A DNA stretch of 22,294 nt from a virus: IMG/VR virus record IMGVR_UViG_3300037333_000017, positions 1 through 22,294 of that record. One strand, written 5' to 3'. Below are positions 8,237 to 17,167 of this stretch, one piece after another (the first letter of the stretch is position 1; each line of letters opens with the position of its first letter). A program made the position numbers and the translations under genes. Under the pieces are notes generated by a model. The model saw only the letters and a list, made by a program, of their open reading frames with translations. It did not search any database and had not been told where the DNA came from.

Positions 8237-8856
8237 TGGAACTAACAAAGAACAGAGTTTACAAAAGAATATTAGTTGGGTTAGATAAAGACGGAAGTCT
8301 CGAGAACCTTAGAGCGGTAGCGAAAACAATAACGCTACCAGGTGAGTTTGTAAAACTAGTAGAAGATGACAATGTGGAAGAAGAACTACTCGAAGTAGCT
8401 ATATTGAAACTAAAGAACTACGTAGAGTCTCTTATTTCTACATACAAACCAAGTATGCCGGAAGAAGTCTTAGAGGTAGTCATAAGAGCAGCTAAAGAAT
8501 TGCAGGACCCAAAAGAAGAGTTTAAGGACCGCGCTAAAGAGACCCTAGATATTAGCACGGCTAATGCCGTAGCTAGATTGACAGCCATATTAGTGAACGT
8601 AACGCCTGTCTATAATGAACTCGCATCAGATTCTGCAAGGGAGTCATTGGTCAAAACACTACATGCCAACATAGAAACAATAGAACTCGACATATATGTG
8701 ACAGAGGGATTAGGTTTAGTGAACGAGTGTCTGAACAATGACGAATCTCCGTTCGGCTTTATAGCAGACAAGATATATACACTATGTAAGACTATAGACG
8801 TATTAAAAGTAGAGGAACTCTTAAGAGATGTTTCGGACAAAGGAGCGCATGTTTAG
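8236..8856 (+). CDS. Acidic helical hypothetical protein, 206 aa
   Basis: It starts in a TAATG overlap with AAAGGA upstream. It is almost entirely charged helix (long runs of Glu, Lys and Leu, no Trp), with no membrane segment. The size and composition fit an assembly chaperone or a tail-tube-related small protein, but no motif supports either. The stop codon (8854-8856) lies inside the left arm of a 30-bp perfect palindrome. Confidence 0.72.
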   Translation: MELTKNRVYKRILVGLDKDGSLENLRAVAKTITLPGEFVKLVEDDNVEEELLEVAILKLKNYVESLISTYKPSMPEEVLEVVIRAAKELQDPKEEFKDRAKETLDISTANAVARLTAILVNVTPVYNELASDSARESLVKTLHANIETIELDIYVTEGLGLVNECLNNDESPFGFIADKIYTLCKTIDVLKVEELLRDVSDKGAHV

Positions 8857-8886
8857 GCCTAGGCCTAAACATGCGATATGATCATG
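8839..8886 (+). promoter_or_regulatory. Shine-Dalgarno, 30-bp perfect palindrome, start codon: hairpin-bridged translation start
   Basis: AAAGGAG (8839-8845) is followed at once by a perfect 30-bp palindrome (8846-8875, centre CCT|AGG). The only start codons of the next gene come after it (ATG 8878 and ATG 8884). No other ribosome binding site precedes those ATGs. If the palindrome folds, the gap from GGAG to ATG 8884 is eight bases, a normal spacing. This is analogous to T4 gene 38, where a hairpin brings the Shine-Dalgarno to the start. No T-run follows, so it is not a terminator. Confidence 0.65.
8849..8881 (+). CDS. Possible 10-codon leader ORF across the palindrome
   Basis: An ATG three bases after AAAGGAG opens a short frame (MFRPRPKHAI, then TGA at 8879-8881). 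It spans the whole palindrome, and its stop overlaps the ATG at 8878 as ATATGA. Translation of it would melt the hairpin and deliver terminating ribosomes to the next gene. It is an alternative to the hairpin-bridging model. The spacing of three bases is tight, so it may not be translated. Confidence 0.25.
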   Translation: MFRPRPKHAI

Positions 8887-10540: not shown

Positions 10541-10615
10541 AACGGAAACATATAATATATATGACTAACTAGATGCGCCGTAAGGCTAACTAAATTAAAA
10601 CAAAAGGATAAAAAG
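10541..10615 (+). promoter_or_regulatory. Possible promoter: TATAATATATA motif ahead of the 668-aa gene
   Basis: TATAATATATA at 10551-10561 is the reverse complement of TATATTATATA, found ahead of the genes at 14519 and 18104. CTAACTA is repeated directly around a small GCC-GTAA-GGC stem. AAAAGGATAAAAAG precedes the ATG. The motif contains TATAAT but has no good -35 box, so it may be a phage-specific promoter or simply AT-rich spacer. Confidence 0.3.
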
Positions 10616-12958: not shown

Positions 12959-13119
12959 CTTTAAAGGATAATTCAATGCAGGTGGAGCATTGTAGAAAAA
13001 GAGTATGCGAGCGAGTCTGGAGACTATTGTAGGAGGTCTCCGTTACGAAAGAGGGCAAAACGTATAACTCGCTCAATATAAAGAGTGTTTCCATTGAAAA
13101 TAAATTGAAGGACAATAGA
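12959..13119 (+). ncRNA. Structured leader with possible three-way junction
   Basis: This 161-base gap between a terminator and the next start is more structured than other leaders here. CAATGC (12974-12979) pairs with GCATTG (12987-12992). GAGCGAGT (13009-13016) pairs with ACTCGCTC (13067-13074) and encloses two hairpins. One is GGAGAC/GTCTCC (13019-13024 with 13036-13041). The other is a weaker TACG/CGTA (13044-13047 with 13061-13064). Together they make a three-way junction. No conserved riboswitch or ribozyme core was recognised and it is not a tRNA. A cis-acting mRNA leader is the likeliest reading; an independent small RNA is possible. Confidence 0.45.
12976..13032 (+). CDS. Possible 18-codon upstream ORF
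   Basis: AAAGGA (12963-12968) lies seven bases before this ATG. It encodes MQVEHCRKRVCERVWRLL and ends at TAG 13030-13032, which falls in the loop of the GGAGAC/GTCTCC hairpin. The frame continues without another stop into the main gene at 13120. It could be a leader peptide, a relic of a longer N-terminus, or a chance ORF. Its translation would disrupt the junction described for this leader. Confidence 0.3.
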   Translation: MQVEHCRKRVCERVWRLL

Positions 13120-14352
13120 ATGTACGGAAATAACATAATAAAACTATTTGAAGACTATGTGGAAAACCCTATAAACTATACAAAGTTATATAAGGACCTT
13201 AAGGGTCATACGTTAAAATGGATGTATAGATCGAAAGACCATATAGAGTTTATGTCATCTAATCTCATAGGTGTACATACTGTAAAGTACACGATAGATG
13301 ATGAAAATGACTTCTTCTCTATATTCGATATAGATAAGATAAGTATAAAGAAAGATATAGATAGTCTAAAGGATATTAATCCAGCATGGAAAGTATCATC
13401 TAACCCTAGATACCTAACGGTAATGTATGTAATACATAAGGCGCTATCGGACAAAGCTAGTAAAGACTTAAAACATGACAAGCACCTACAGGAGAAATTA
13501 ATAAAAGAAATAAACCTTATATTCTCTATACAGGTCTATACTAGTTTGATGGTGACGTACTACAGATACGCACTAGATGAGAACATTGCAAGTACCGTGT
13601 TCGAAAATTTACCATATAGGTTTATTCTTAAGAAAGAGGGATCCTGGAAGAGAACGTTTGATTATTTCTCTCAGTATGTATTACCGAAAGGAACCCATGA
13701 AAAGAAGTTAGTTAGATTCCACACGAAAGACGCTATGGACGTAACTGCAGATATGCAAGGTAAAATAAGAAGTACGGTTATAGAACTAACACGAGTCGTC
13801 CATAATACGATAGACGCTCACAACGCTAGAGAGTCTAGGGGTAACCTAACGTTAAACGAAGAGGGTGAGGAGGAGTTACTAGACGTTATTAACGGAAATA
13901 AGGTCTATCATAATGCATTAACAGACATCATATATAGAGAGAATGAGTTTGTTAAGAAGGACTATGTTGGTATGATGAAAGAACTATACCCTAACCTCTA
14001 TGAGAAGGAATTACTATTCACACTATCTCACATGTCTAAGAATTACCTTAAACATAAAAAGGAGATAGATGATCTCATAGAGGACTGCCTTAATGCGAAC
14101 ATAAAATACCTATATAGAAGTAAACTCTATCCTCCTTACGATAAGAACGTTATTGACGTTATACGGTTCCTAAGAGGATTCTGGATAAACAGTAAGGTGA
14201 ACGATGAATATAACGTGAGGTTTAAGAAGAACTGTAAGTCATATGTAAGAATGGCCACAGGTAAGAAGACCGAAAGAGTCATAGCGACAGTAGTGATAGC
14301 TGTGGCGATATATTTCATGCTCATGGCTATAGATAACAGTAGAAGAAAATAA
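13120..14352 (+). CDS. C-tail-anchored membrane protein, 410 aa, unknown role
   Basis: I start at ATG 13120 (MYGNNIIKLFE), seven bases after AAGGA, in preference to the in-frame TTG at 13105. The protein is helical and rich in Lys, Tyr and Ile. Its one clear hydrophobic segment is residues 387-404, right at the C-terminus, followed by a basic tail (SRRK). This is a tail-anchored layout, with the body on the cytoplasmic side. There is no signal peptide. Its own leader and flanking terminators make it a separate transcription unit, unlike the virion operon upstream. It may act on the host membrane or in assembly; the family is unknown. Confidence 0.75.
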   Translation: MYGNNIIKLFEDYVENPINYTKLYKDLKGHTLKWMYRSKDHIEFMSSNLIGVHTVKYTIDDENDFFSIFDIDKISIKKDIDSLKDINPAWKVSSNPRYLTVMYVIHKALSDKASKDLKHDKHLQEKLIKEINLIFSIQVYTSLMVTYYRYALDENIASTVFENLPYRFILKKEGSWKRTFDYFSQYVLPKGTHEKKLVRFHTKDAMDVTADMQGKIRSTVIELTRVVHNTIDAHNARESRGNLTLNEEGEEELLDVINGNKVYHNALTDIIYRENEFVKKDYVGMMKELYPNLYEKELLFTLSHMSKNYLKHKKEIDDLIEDCLNANIKYLYRSKLYPPYDKNVIDVIRFLRGFWINSKVNDEYNVRFKKNCKSYVRMATGKKTERVIATVVIAVAIYFMLMAIDNSRRK

Positions 14353-14397
14353 CGTCTAGTGCCGTTTTCGGCACTAGATGTGTTCTCATTTTTTTTT
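14353..14397 (+). terminator. Hairpin terminator after the membrane-protein gene
   Basis: CGTCTAGTGCCG (14353-14364) pairs with CGGCACTAGATG (14369-14380) around TTTT, with one G-U pair. Nine T follow at 14389-14397 after an 8-base gap, longer than usual. It starts right after the TAA stop at 14352. Confidence 0.8.
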
Positions 14398-14518
14398 ACT
14401 TATATATTATATATTCGGTTAAACTAGATTATGACCTTAATGGTTTGGTACTATAGCGATATGGTACGACTCTCTATATGCTTTCATGGGTGTATAGAAT
14501 AATAATAAAGGAGTAAAC
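14398..14518 (+). promoter_or_regulatory. Promoter-like AT motif and leader hairpin of the palindrome-rich gene
   Basis: TATATTATATA (14403-14413) follows the upstream terminator directly and recurs at 18055-18065, so it is a candidate phage promoter element. The leader then has GTACTATA/TATGGTAC (14448-14455 with 14460-14467), an 8-bp RNA stem with one U-G pair and a GCGA loop. AAAGGAG (14507-14513) precedes the ATG by five bases. This puts the gene in its own monocistronic unit between two terminators. Confidence 0.4.
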
Positions 14519-15046
14519 ATGAAAAATAAAAATAAAACTAGAAAATCGACTCCGACAAAAACAACGACCATAATCCCCGTCGGAGAGGCGTACACCGACA
14601 GAGATGTGTACGTAGAGTCTCTACGTACATTGGAAAAACGCGAGACGCTTCGTCTCGCGAGACTGTTGGAAGAGTTGCTAGGAGAGGCATGCCTCTCCGC
14701 GTCAGCGCGCGCATGGAGAGGAATAAGCGCAGCGAAGGCTGCGTTCGAGAGCGCAGTTAGAGGTGATCCGCGCGCTGAATTCGTTGATATCGATGCGACG
14801 GGATCTTCCGATCCCGTCGCATCGATAAAACGTTTGAGAGAAAGCCTACAGAGAAAAGGAGATGAAAGTCTAAACAATTTGAAGAAAAAAATAGACGTTA
14901 TAGACGCTGAAACCTCAGACCCTGACACGGTAGAGCCGTGTGTACCATCCGGTACACACGAACTAAAACCTAAACCGACACGAACAGTTAATGTGGTTCG
15001 CGGCGGAGGGCTAGACCTCTCTGCCCTCCGCCGCGCGAGAACATAA
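14519..15046 (+). CDS. Hypothetical protein, 175 aa, in a palindrome-studded coding sequence
   Basis: The start is supported by AAAGGAG with ideal spacing. The product has a basic Thr/Lys-rich N-terminus (1-20), an Ala/Leu/Arg-rich helix (about 30-82), a second charged helix (103-130), a Pro/Thr linker (132-158) and a Gly/Arg end. There is no membrane segment and no recognised family. The coding DNA is visibly more GC- and CpG-rich than its neighbours and contains at least seven strong inverted repeats plus a longer-range stem, listed separately. Because of that symmetry an antisense frame is also open, but it has no ribosome binding site. The gene may be a real protein with inserted palindromes, or a structured RNA that is also translated. 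Confidence 0.65.
   Translation: MKNKNKTRKSTPTKTTTIIPVGEAYTDRDVYVESLRTLEKRETLRLARLLEELLGEACLSASARAWRGISAAKAAFESAVRGDPRAEFVDIDATGSSDPVASIKRLRESLQRKGDESLNNLKKKIDVIDAETSDPDTVEPCVPSGTHELKPKPTRTVNVVRGGGLDLSALRRART
14550..14585 (+). repeat. Inverted repeat 1 of the array (7-bp arms)
   Basis: CTCCGAC (14550-14556) and GTCGGAG (14579-14585) are separated by 22 bases. It is the weakest and most open member of the array, near the start of the gene. Confidence 0.5.
14607..14629 (+). repeat. Inverted repeat 2 of the array (11-bp arms)
   Basis: TGTACGTAGAG and CTCTACGTACA flank a single T. All 11 pairs are perfect. It is in frame with the protein and encodes parts of VYVESLRTL. Confidence 0.85.
14639..14659 (+). 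repeat. Inverted repeat 3 of the array (9-bp arms)
   Basis: CGCGAGACG and CGTCTCGCG flank CTT, with nine perfect pairs. It begins ten bases after repeat 2. Confidence 0.85.
14681..14698 (+). repeat. Inverted repeat 4 of the array (18-bp perfect palindrome)
   Basis: GGAGAGGCATGCCTCTCC is a perfect palindrome without spacer, centred on the SphI-type GCATGC. Confidence 0.85.
14702..14778 (+). repeat. Longer-range stem enclosing repeat 5 of the array
   Basis: TCAGCGCGCG (14702-14711) is the exact reverse complement of CGCGCGCTGA (14769-14778). Inside, CGCAGC (14728-14733) pairs with GCTGCG (14738-14743) around GAAG, extended to 8 bp in RNA by a G-U and an A-U pair. A competing CTGCG/CGCAG pairing is also present. 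Confidence 0.7.
14788..14827 (+). repeat. Inverted repeat 6 of the array (18-bp arms)
   Basis: The strongest member. Eighteen bases (14788-14805, beginning TATCGATGCG and ending GGGATC) are perfectly complementary to 14810-14827 around the 4-base loop TTCC. It encodes IDATGSSDPVASI in frame. Confidence 0.9.
14925..14960 (+). repeat. Inverted repeat 7 of the array, two competing hairpins
   Basis: CGTGTGTACC (14937-14946) pairs perfectly with GGTACACACG (14951-14960) around ATCC. An overlapping hairpin, ACACGG (14925-14930) with CCGTGT (14936-14941), uses some of the same bases. The two folds are therefore mutually exclusive. Confidence 0.8.
14999..15035 (+). repeat. Inverted repeat 8 of the array (13-bp GC-rich arms)
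   Basis: CGCGGCGGAGGGC and GCCCTCCGCCGCG flank an 11-base loop. All 13 pairs are perfect and nearly all G-C. GTT/AAC outside (14996-14998 with 15040-15042) may extend it past a bulge. It covers the last codons of the gene. Confidence 0.88.
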
Positions 15047-15096
15047 CACCATACACGTACGTTTAAACGTACGTGTATGGTGTGGTCTTTTTTTTT
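15046..15096 (+). terminator. 38-bp perfect palindrome and T-run between convergent genes
   Basis: Bases 15046-15064 are perfectly complementary to 15065-15083 (centre GTTT|AAAC), with no spacer. Nine T follow at 15088-15096. It ends transcription of the 14519 gene and overlaps the TAA stop of the minus-strand gene ending at 15095. The T-run serves only the plus strand. The minus transcript would still form the stem but has no U-run. Confidence 0.85.
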
Positions 15097-15625
15097 AGTC
15101 ATCGTATATTTCGTACGAGATATCTGTGCTCTTCACTTCCGTAGTATCATCGTCTAAGACCTCTAATAACCTCTCCTCAAATTCAGACTTAACTGTATCT
15201 GATATAGCGTCTGATGCTGCGTTTACTAATCTCTGTGACATTGTTCCTCTTCCCAACCTAGTCATAACTTCGTGTTTACTTTTTAAGCTATCGAAGTTAA
15301 CAGGTATTTTCTCTAACATTTCATGTGGCGTCTTGTGTATTATTCCGGGTATCGTGGCCACCACTACGCCATCCTTAACTATATCTACCGGAGACTTTGG
15401 ACCTCCCGCGTACGATATAAATCTCCCTATCAGGTACATGTTATCATTAGTAATAGGTACCTCACCTAAAAACACCGGTTCAAATAATTCCTTATAAACA
15501 TCATAAGGCATGCGTTTATTCGGTACTGCGGCGAGTGCTGAATATACCTTCTCTATGGTCTTTTCAGCTTGCGCGTACTCCTGTCTCTTTATCCTGTTCA
15601 CTTCTTCTTCTAACGGATTACCCAT
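15095..15625 (-). CDS. Hypothetical protein, 176 aa, second gene of minus-strand pair
   Basis: The ATG at 15625 follows TAGGAG on the minus strand, eight bases after the upstream gene. The N-terminus is helical and charged (EEEVNRIKRQEYAQAEKTIEK would continue this helix). The middle contains GGPKSPVDIVKDG and an IPGIIHKTP segment, and the C-terminus is acidic. No family is recognised. Its pairing with a possibly gp25-like gene suggests a baseplate or neck assembly role. It ends against a bidirectional-looking palindrome. Confidence 0.72.
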   Translation of the reverse strand: MGNPLEEEVNRIKRQEYAQAEKTIEKVYSALAAVPNKRMPYDVYKELFEPVFLGEVPITNDNMYLIGRFISYAGGPKSPVDIVKDGVVVATIPGIIHKTPHEMLEKIPVNFDSLKSKHEVMTRLGRGTMSQRLVNAASDAISDTVKSEFEERLLEVLDDDTTEVKSTDISYEIYDD

Positions 15626-16084: not shown

Positions 16085-17167
16085 GTGAAGAAAGTAAGAA
16101 TATTTAACATAACAGACATACATTTAGGACATAATAATACCCCTACTAAAACAATAGTTAATAATATCTATACGTACTTTAAAGATAACGTTAAGTTTTT
16201 ACTCAGTGCTGACATAGTAACAATATCCGGAGATTACTTCCATAAGCTACTATCGAGTGTATCTGACGATTACAAATTAGGGATCGAGTGTTTATTGTTT
16301 ATAGCTAAGTTTTGCGATAAGCACGGAATAATACTTAGAGTACTAGAAGGAACACCATCGCACGATGTGAATCAGTTGGCAACATTTAGTAAGACACTGG
16401 AAGCATTTCAGATAACGTTAGACTTTAAGTATATCGACATTCTAACCGTAGAGTATATGGAAGCATTCGACATGCACATACTTTATGTTCCTGACGAGGT
16501 ATCCACAAATGCGGTTGAGACGCAGGATAAGATACGTGATATGATGGGCAATATGAGCCTAACGAAAGTTGACCATATTGTTATGCATGGTCAATTCCAT
16601 TATCACCTACCTATATTTTCTCAACACAGTTTTGATGAGGATTTCTTTTTAGGTATAACGGATAACTATATTGTTAATGGACATATACACATATTTAGCA
16701 CATTTAATAGGATTATTACGCCAGGCAGCTTCGATAGGCTAACACATAACGAAGAGGGTAAGAAGGGAGGCATCTTTATTTCTTACGACGGATACGGAGG
16801 AAAGGAATATATATTTATAGAGAACAAACACGCTATGTCATATGTGACGCTTAGATACAAGCATACTGAACCAGATATTATAGTAAAGGACATAATGAGC
16901 TTAAGGTTGCGTGACGGTTCACACGTAAGGGTACTGACTGAAGCTACGTCAGATAGATCAATTCGTTCAACGCTTAAGACCATGTTTCCAAACTATACAA
17001 TTAAGGTAGAGACAAGAAAGGCAGAAGAGGAGACGTCATTGACAGATACGTTAACCCTAACGTTTAAAGAGTTACATATAACAAGAGACAACATAATGTC
17101 ATTAGTTAAGAGCAGATTAGGTGATAAATTCGAGACCGTTGAGGCGGACTTATGTAAATTCATATAG
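16085..17167 (+). CDS. SbcD/Mre11-type metallophosphoesterase, nuclease subunit (gp47-like), 360 aa
   Basis: Starts at GTG, well spaced from AAGGAAGG. The calcineurin-like metallophosphoesterase motifs are in order: DIH (11-13), GDYFH (49-53), GTPSHD (89-94), MHG (167-169) and GHIH (199-202). Together they supply the two-metal site of Mre11/SbcD nucleases. Length is near T4 gp47 (339 aa). Residues past ~245 form the variable capping region. The usual GNHD is here GTPSHD, a variant I recall from other phage members. The family works with an SbcC/gp46-type ATPase in end processing, recombination and cleavage of DNA hairpins. No ATPase gene is in this window, so the partner must lie elsewhere or be the host's. 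It heads a plus-strand operon of otherwise unknown genes. Confidence 0.9.
   Translation: MKKVRIFNITDIHLGHNNTPTKTIVNNIYTYFKDNVKFLLSADIVTISGDYFHKLLSSVSDDYKLGIECLLFIAKFCDKHGIILRVLEGTPSHDVNQLATFSKTLEAFQITLDFKYIDILTVEYMEAFDMHILYVPDEVSTNAVETQDKIRDMMGNMSLTKVDHIVMHGQFHYHLPIFSQHSFDEDFFLGITDNYIVNGHIHIFSTFNRIITPGSFDRLTHNEEGKKGGIFISYDGYGGKEYIFIENKHAMSYVTLRYKHTEPDIIVKDIMSLRLRDGSHVRVLTEATSDRSIRSTLKTMFPNYTIKVETRKAEEETSLTDTLTLTFKELHITRDNIMSLVKSRLGDKFETVEADLCKFI

Follow-up and report, generated by a model that had tools for sequence, protein, structure and literature searches.

What could have filled a short phage gene with perfect inverted repeats? The question is raised by an ORF of 175 codons at positions 14519-15046 (+ strand) of the window, which is the 22,294-nucleotide stretch that we analyzed and the first part of the 106,101-base IMG/VR record IMGVR_UViG_3300037333_000017 (G000). 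We consider it possible, with a probability of roughly 45%, that this gene (14519) belongs to a class of short genes, most of them orphans, whose messages are folded under RNA-level selection. The gene would then owe its many perfect hairpins to membership of a class that shares a promoter and leader, and in which nearly all messages are heavily folded.

The contig is a fragment of a divergent, uncultured phiKZ-like jumbo phage. Among its proteins, matches to phiKZ-type PHROGs include RNA polymerase beta subunits and virion proteins, and it also encodes multisubunit RNA polymerases. In RNA polymerase beta, identity to the nearest cultured phages is ~26%, and identity to four IMG/VR relatives (G001 to G004) is 29-33%; full-length alignments of this protein give 32% for G001 and 34% for G002. 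The upstream neighbour of the ORF, gene 13105-14352, corresponds to the widespread family phrog_2921, whose flanking genes differ in other phages, with no conserved surroundings.

The ORF is a real coding sequence on the + strand, because its codon signal is frame-specific and it is flanked by a ribosome binding site and a terminator of its own. Its codon score is -0.05, whereas the other + frames score between -0.42 and -0.44 and no antisense frame exceeds -0.30. The ribosome binding site, AAAGGAG, lies at 14507-14513 (+ strand). The encoded protein is an orphan: no homologues were detected in IMG/VR, in 50,697 phage records or in the four relatives, and no DNA similarity to the region was found in phages. 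Neither the ORF region nor the AACTAGAT leader has a relevant Rfam match at E<=1. Single-sequence AlphaFold2 modelling of the 175-amino-acid protein was uninformative (pLDDT 51).

The arms that had originally been listed (7, 11, 9, 9, long-range, 18, 10 and 13 bp) were all located, and are given here as read on the + strand. A 7-bp hairpin, CTCCGAC/GTCGGAG, spans 14550-14585 (arms 14550-14556 and 14579-14585). Repeat searches place inverted repeats at 14607-14629 (11-bp arms, 1-nucleotide spacer) and 14639-14659 (9-bp arms, 3-nucleotide spacer), a palindrome of 9-bp arms with no spacer at 14681-14698, and further inverted repeats at 14788-14827 (18-bp arms, 4-nucleotide spacer), 14937-14960 (10-bp arms, 4-nucleotide spacer) and 14999-15035 (13-bp arms, 11-nucleotide spacer). 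Long-range pairing joins 14702-14714 to 14766-14778, with 12 of 13 positions paired. Directly 3' of the stop codon, a 19-bp perfect palindrome with a T-run (15046-15098, assigned to neither strand) forms a terminator between convergent genes. Inside the ORF, no hairpin is directly followed by a T-run, as an intrinsic terminator would be.

When perfect repeats with arms of at least 9 bp and spacers of at most 16 nucleotides are counted, the 528 nucleotides of the ORF contain 6 (arms of 9 to 18 bp), versus 64 in the entire contig of 106 kb, the majority being gene-end hairpins. The densest 600 nucleotides hold 7 such repeats in this contig, versus 2 to 4 in phiKZ and the four relatives. The initial annotation had suggested codon-preserving controls, and both repeat density and folding exceed them. 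In 500 shuffles that hold the amino acid sequence and codon set of the ORF fixed, repeats with arms of at least 8 bp average 0.40 and reach a maximum of 3, versus 6 observed, and the fold energy of -207.2 kcal/mol lies 6.2 standard deviations below the shuffles (-157.7 +/- 7.9; z -6.2). The whole transcript region folds 10.5 standard deviations below dinucleotide shuffles. By hand count, the six perfect arm pairs have a GC content of 66%, versus ~45% in the remaining ORF. The ORF folds equally well in antisense and in sense, and its own repeats are strand-symmetric.

These arms indeed lack G-U pairs, but the argument drawn from this, that an RNA fold kept for long would have tolerated wobble, fails when applied to other hairpins of the contig. 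Hairpins at convergent gene ends contain 3 G-U pairs among 333, and those at one-directional gene ends have G-U mainly at the ends of stems or in one doubtful stem. Because gene-end hairpins necessarily act as RNA, and are nearly free of G-U, the missing wobble is no argument against RNA.

Upstream of gene 14519 (all features on the + strand), the preceding gene ends in a terminator hairpin with a T-run (14355-14398; perfect arms of 10 bp, loop TTTT). An AT-rich octamer, TATATTAT (14403-14410), is a putative early-type -10 element, as suggested by the same layout before other class genes. It is followed by a conserved 5' leader element, TTAAACTAGATTATG (14419-14433), that is common to the leaders of genes 57796, 58490 and 101981, and by three hairpins. 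Pairing in H1 (14433-14445) is kept between the leaders of 14519 and 101981, and in H3 (14473-14498), which has 11 bp including G-U pairs, it is kept with one two-sided change. H2 (14448-14467) has 8 bp and a GNRA-type tetraloop, GCGA, and covaries across four leaders: all 8 pairs are formed in all 4 sequences, with two-sided changes in 6 of the 8, in an alignment from whose 57796 row one bulged A was deleted by hand. None of 500 shuffles was equally good. Over H1 to H3, 7 of 23 base pairs differ between the leaders of 14519 and 101981, and all 23 are still paired. The leaders fold better in sense than in antisense, most clearly in 14519 and 101981; the 14519 leader has 8 G-U pairs, and its sense fold is far better than its antisense fold. 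The covariation in H2, the retained pairs and the sense-strand bias together establish that the leader acts as RNA. It is a conserved RNA element, and H2 is a conserved RNA fold. An exact search of IMG/VR with the leader core GACTAAACTAGATTATG gave three chance matches, all inside unrelated genes.

Other short genes of the contig have the same promoter motif, AACTAGAT, and the same leader as 14519. In a scan of all genes, strong excess folding was also apparent in the short genes 55797-56150 and 58490-58741, and both have the same upstream element, namely an AT-rich octamer of the YATATWAT type and a short spacer, then TAAACTAGATTA or TCTAACTAGATTA. A motif search added genes 57796, 101981 and 105811, as well as 10616 and 51136, which have a variant leader. 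The statement that nothing comparable occurs elsewhere thus holds within the window, but not for the contig, where genes 55797, 58490, 101981 and 105811 are also unusually folded. Ranked among 96 genes by fold gain, i.e., relative to codon-preserving shuffles, 55797 is 1st, 14519 2nd, 58490 4th, 101981 6th, 51136 17th and 10616 22nd, and only one gene outside the class is more folded than 105811. Five of the six short class genes are within the 7 most folded of ~97 genes; the exception is 57796, which has the leader and yet is the least folded gene (rank 96). The excess is significant for all eight class genes (Mann-Whitney, p=0.001) and for the five that remain when the three that led to the motif are left out (p=0.043). 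The motif was picked partly after folded genes had been seen.

Fold gain does not depend on GC content among genes outside the class, whose median is near zero, so pervasive folding is not a genome-wide property. Once GC and length are taken into account, the residuals are still large, at -7.3 standard deviations for 14519. Relative to codon shuffles, 7 of 9 class genes show a sense-strand bias within the ORF (pooled by hand, Stouffer z about -3.2), and 14519 is neutral. We infer that selection on RNA also operates inside the class ORFs. The variant leader, ACTAGATGYGCCGTAAGGCTAACTAAATTAAAACAAAAGGATAAAA, contains a GCC-GUAA-GGC hairpin and constitutes a second class of leader; it is near-identical upstream of 10616 (window 10548-10615) and 51136 (contig 51086-51135), and part of it also occurs at contig 26998-27020.

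A similar trait is seen in G001, where an intergenic word, TTAACTAGACAA (repeated, and read on the coding strand), or a leader, GACAAAGCAAAACCAAAAAAGGAGT, precedes strongly folded genes; the motif belongs to the family seen in G000, and it marks four of the six most folded genes. Genes with this motif or leader rank 2, 4, 5, 6 and 83 of 190 in fold gain (p=0.0009), rank 83 being that of gene 87984, which has the promoter. Increased folding likewise characterizes G001 genes downstream of TATATTAC/T-type promoters (p=0.006). In the class genes of G001, imperfect stems that rely on G-U pairs in the sense strand are common. The folded genes have no evident homology to the class of G000, and no relative of 14519 was found in G001. 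The 26 phiKZ genes that lie downstream of TATATTAC show no increase in folding (p=0.82), and neither do ORFs behind comparable promoters in G002 and G003, including those with a small leader hairpin, GATACTNNNNAGTATC. The trait, present in G001 and missing behind comparable promoters in G002, G003 and phiKZ, is therefore lineage-specific.

Several other structures were observed in these phages. At many genes of G002 and G003, the intergenic region has TATATTATTAA as a promoter and then a small leader hairpin with the sequence GATACT-NNNN-AGTATC or a variant of it; examples, all on the - strand, are at 175348, 113333 and 14223 in G002 and at 72913 in G003. A 142-amino-acid gene of phiKZ (AF399011, 172658-173086) has long imperfect stems and an extreme codon-preserving fold gain, with z about -11.6. 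An AT-rich intergenic region of G001 (90273-90411) contains perfect palindromes of 21 bp and 26 bp.

In our preferred reading, each class gene has its own promoter of one type, most full leaders include the conserved covarying hairpin, and several genes end at a strong terminator hairpin. Synonymous choice, and probably amino acid choice too, would be bent so that the message becomes a chain of stable hairpins. The class is probably transcribed early by the virion RNA polymerase, which in such phages recognizes early promoters by AT-rich motifs near -10 (PMC7598289). The AT-rich octamers of the class resemble phiKZ-type early promoters, which are octamers as well (PMC7058600). "Early" is a reading of the promoter layout, because a promoter matrix trained on phiKZ sites neither found nor scored the class sites of G000. 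Early transcription proceeds inside a vesicle, before the phage nucleus forms (PMC12908238), and RNA structure shields some T4 messages from endonuclease, as when structure blocks RegB or in the gene 32 leader (PMC3014915). Since the virion RNA polymerase reads early genes before the nucleus exists, and structure protects some messages of T4, we propose early protection, as a conjecture, for the most likely mechanism: folding might leave RNase E and other host endoribonucleases few unpaired stretches to attack, and reduced access might give a longer life to the small pool of messages made at that stage.

A broader proposal is more tentative, and we hold it to be possible but doubtful. Within a single branch of the nucleus-forming phages, selection may have acted on messages from probable early promoters as a class, so that they fold over their full length, with a shared covarying leader, and thereby escape host ribonucleases or RNA-guided immunity until the nucleus forms. 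Nucleus-forming phages hide their DNA, yet their messages stay exposed. If the proposal is true, a set of small, unrelated genes with a common promoter, almost all of them heavily folded, would represent an adaptation at the level of the message, and the class signature could serve as a sequence handle for first-acting host-takeover genes that lack homologues.

The hairpins might instead be by-products of mutation, if template switching during phage replication perfects imperfect palindromes and the result is tolerated in orphan genes that are small and evolve fast. Contig-wide there are 16 perfect palindromes without a spacer versus ~0.6 expected, and such palindromes are in excess in G001 to G004 too, some of them inside unrelated genes, a hint that mutation also generates palindromes in these phages; the perfect, strand-symmetric arms of 14519 would fit such a process. 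However, folding follows one promoter class in two diverged phages, and this pattern argues against mutational bias as the whole explanation, as do the GC-rich arms of 14519, the many imperfect class stems of G001 with G-U on the sense strand, and a leader hairpin maintained through compensatory change. We regard a mutational origin, the main rival to our reading, as rather unlikely, although for 14519 taken by itself it stays a candidate. All of the folding data are also compatible with another RNA-level purpose, such as evading RNA-guided immunity (Cas13 or type III), pacing translation, or binding ChmC or another RNA-binding protein of the phage for export. DNA-targeting systems fail against nucleus-forming phages, whereas RNA-targeting systems succeed, and phage RNA is bound by ChmC (PMC12908238). 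Late messages would need equal protection but are not generally folded, and we judge such purposes unlikely.

Roles of the palindromes as DNA, i.e., as targets of a hairpin-acting enzyme, as a replication or packaging signal, or as copies of a palindromic element, stay candidates for 14519 alone, together with recent inverted duplication, because its own repeats are strand-symmetric, and perfect; an SbcD-like nuclease gene also lies ~1 kb away (window 16085-17164). The arms share no sequence, however, and a search of the contig for second copies returned only self matches, which lends no support to the small palindromic element that had been offered as one role. Similar folding in unrelated genes with the same promoter, and the average preference of class genes for the sense strand, also weigh against DNA-level action, which seems improbable. 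Least probable of all is a large structured noncoding RNA with an incidental reading frame. GOLLD and ROOL are large phage noncoding RNAs with several hundred strongly folded bases, and the 14519 region resembles them in its ~600 nucleotides from its own promoter-like element to the terminator and its very stable fold. Unlike them, it is coding, with a frame-specific codon signal and a ribosome binding site, and has no Rfam match; the protein of class member 105811 has PHROG relatives. Of the roles proposed in the initial annotation, the one with the most support is that of a translated message that doubles as a structured RNA.

Class membership under RNA-level selection, our preferred reading, has partial parallels in known systems. 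Early transcripts of phiKZ-like phages (Chimalliviridae), made from promoters of the virion RNA polymerase, are similar in the AT-rich octamer before small genes and in the phiKZ-type PHROGs and multisubunit RNA polymerases found in G000, but phiKZ genes behind TATATTAC lack excess folding, and the leader described here lacks an Rfam match. The structure-protected messages of T4 likewise involve phage mRNA structure thought to limit endonuclease access, as we conjecture here; the T4 cases are local structures of leaders or ribosome binding sites, whereas the hairpins of G000 span coding sequence across a promoter class. In the genome-scale ordered RNA structure (GORS) of positive-strand RNA viruses (PMC3695492), coding RNA is pervasively folded beyond codon-preserving chance, as in 14519. 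Unlike those viruses, G000 is a dsDNA phage in which only a few short genes are folded, into short, local and often perfect hairpins.

Other features of the contig were noted in passing. Perfect palindromes with spacers of 0 or 1 are in excess, both at gene ends and inside genes, for example at 8846-8875, 27515-27544, 41377-41408, 51011-51028 and 55936-55957. A tRNA-Met (CAT) gene is located at 54862-54937. At 75793-75895, between two annotated ORFs and with no obvious ORF of its own, a promoter-like octamer is followed by ~95 nucleotides with three hairpins, the last of 12 bp, and this region may correspond to a small RNA.
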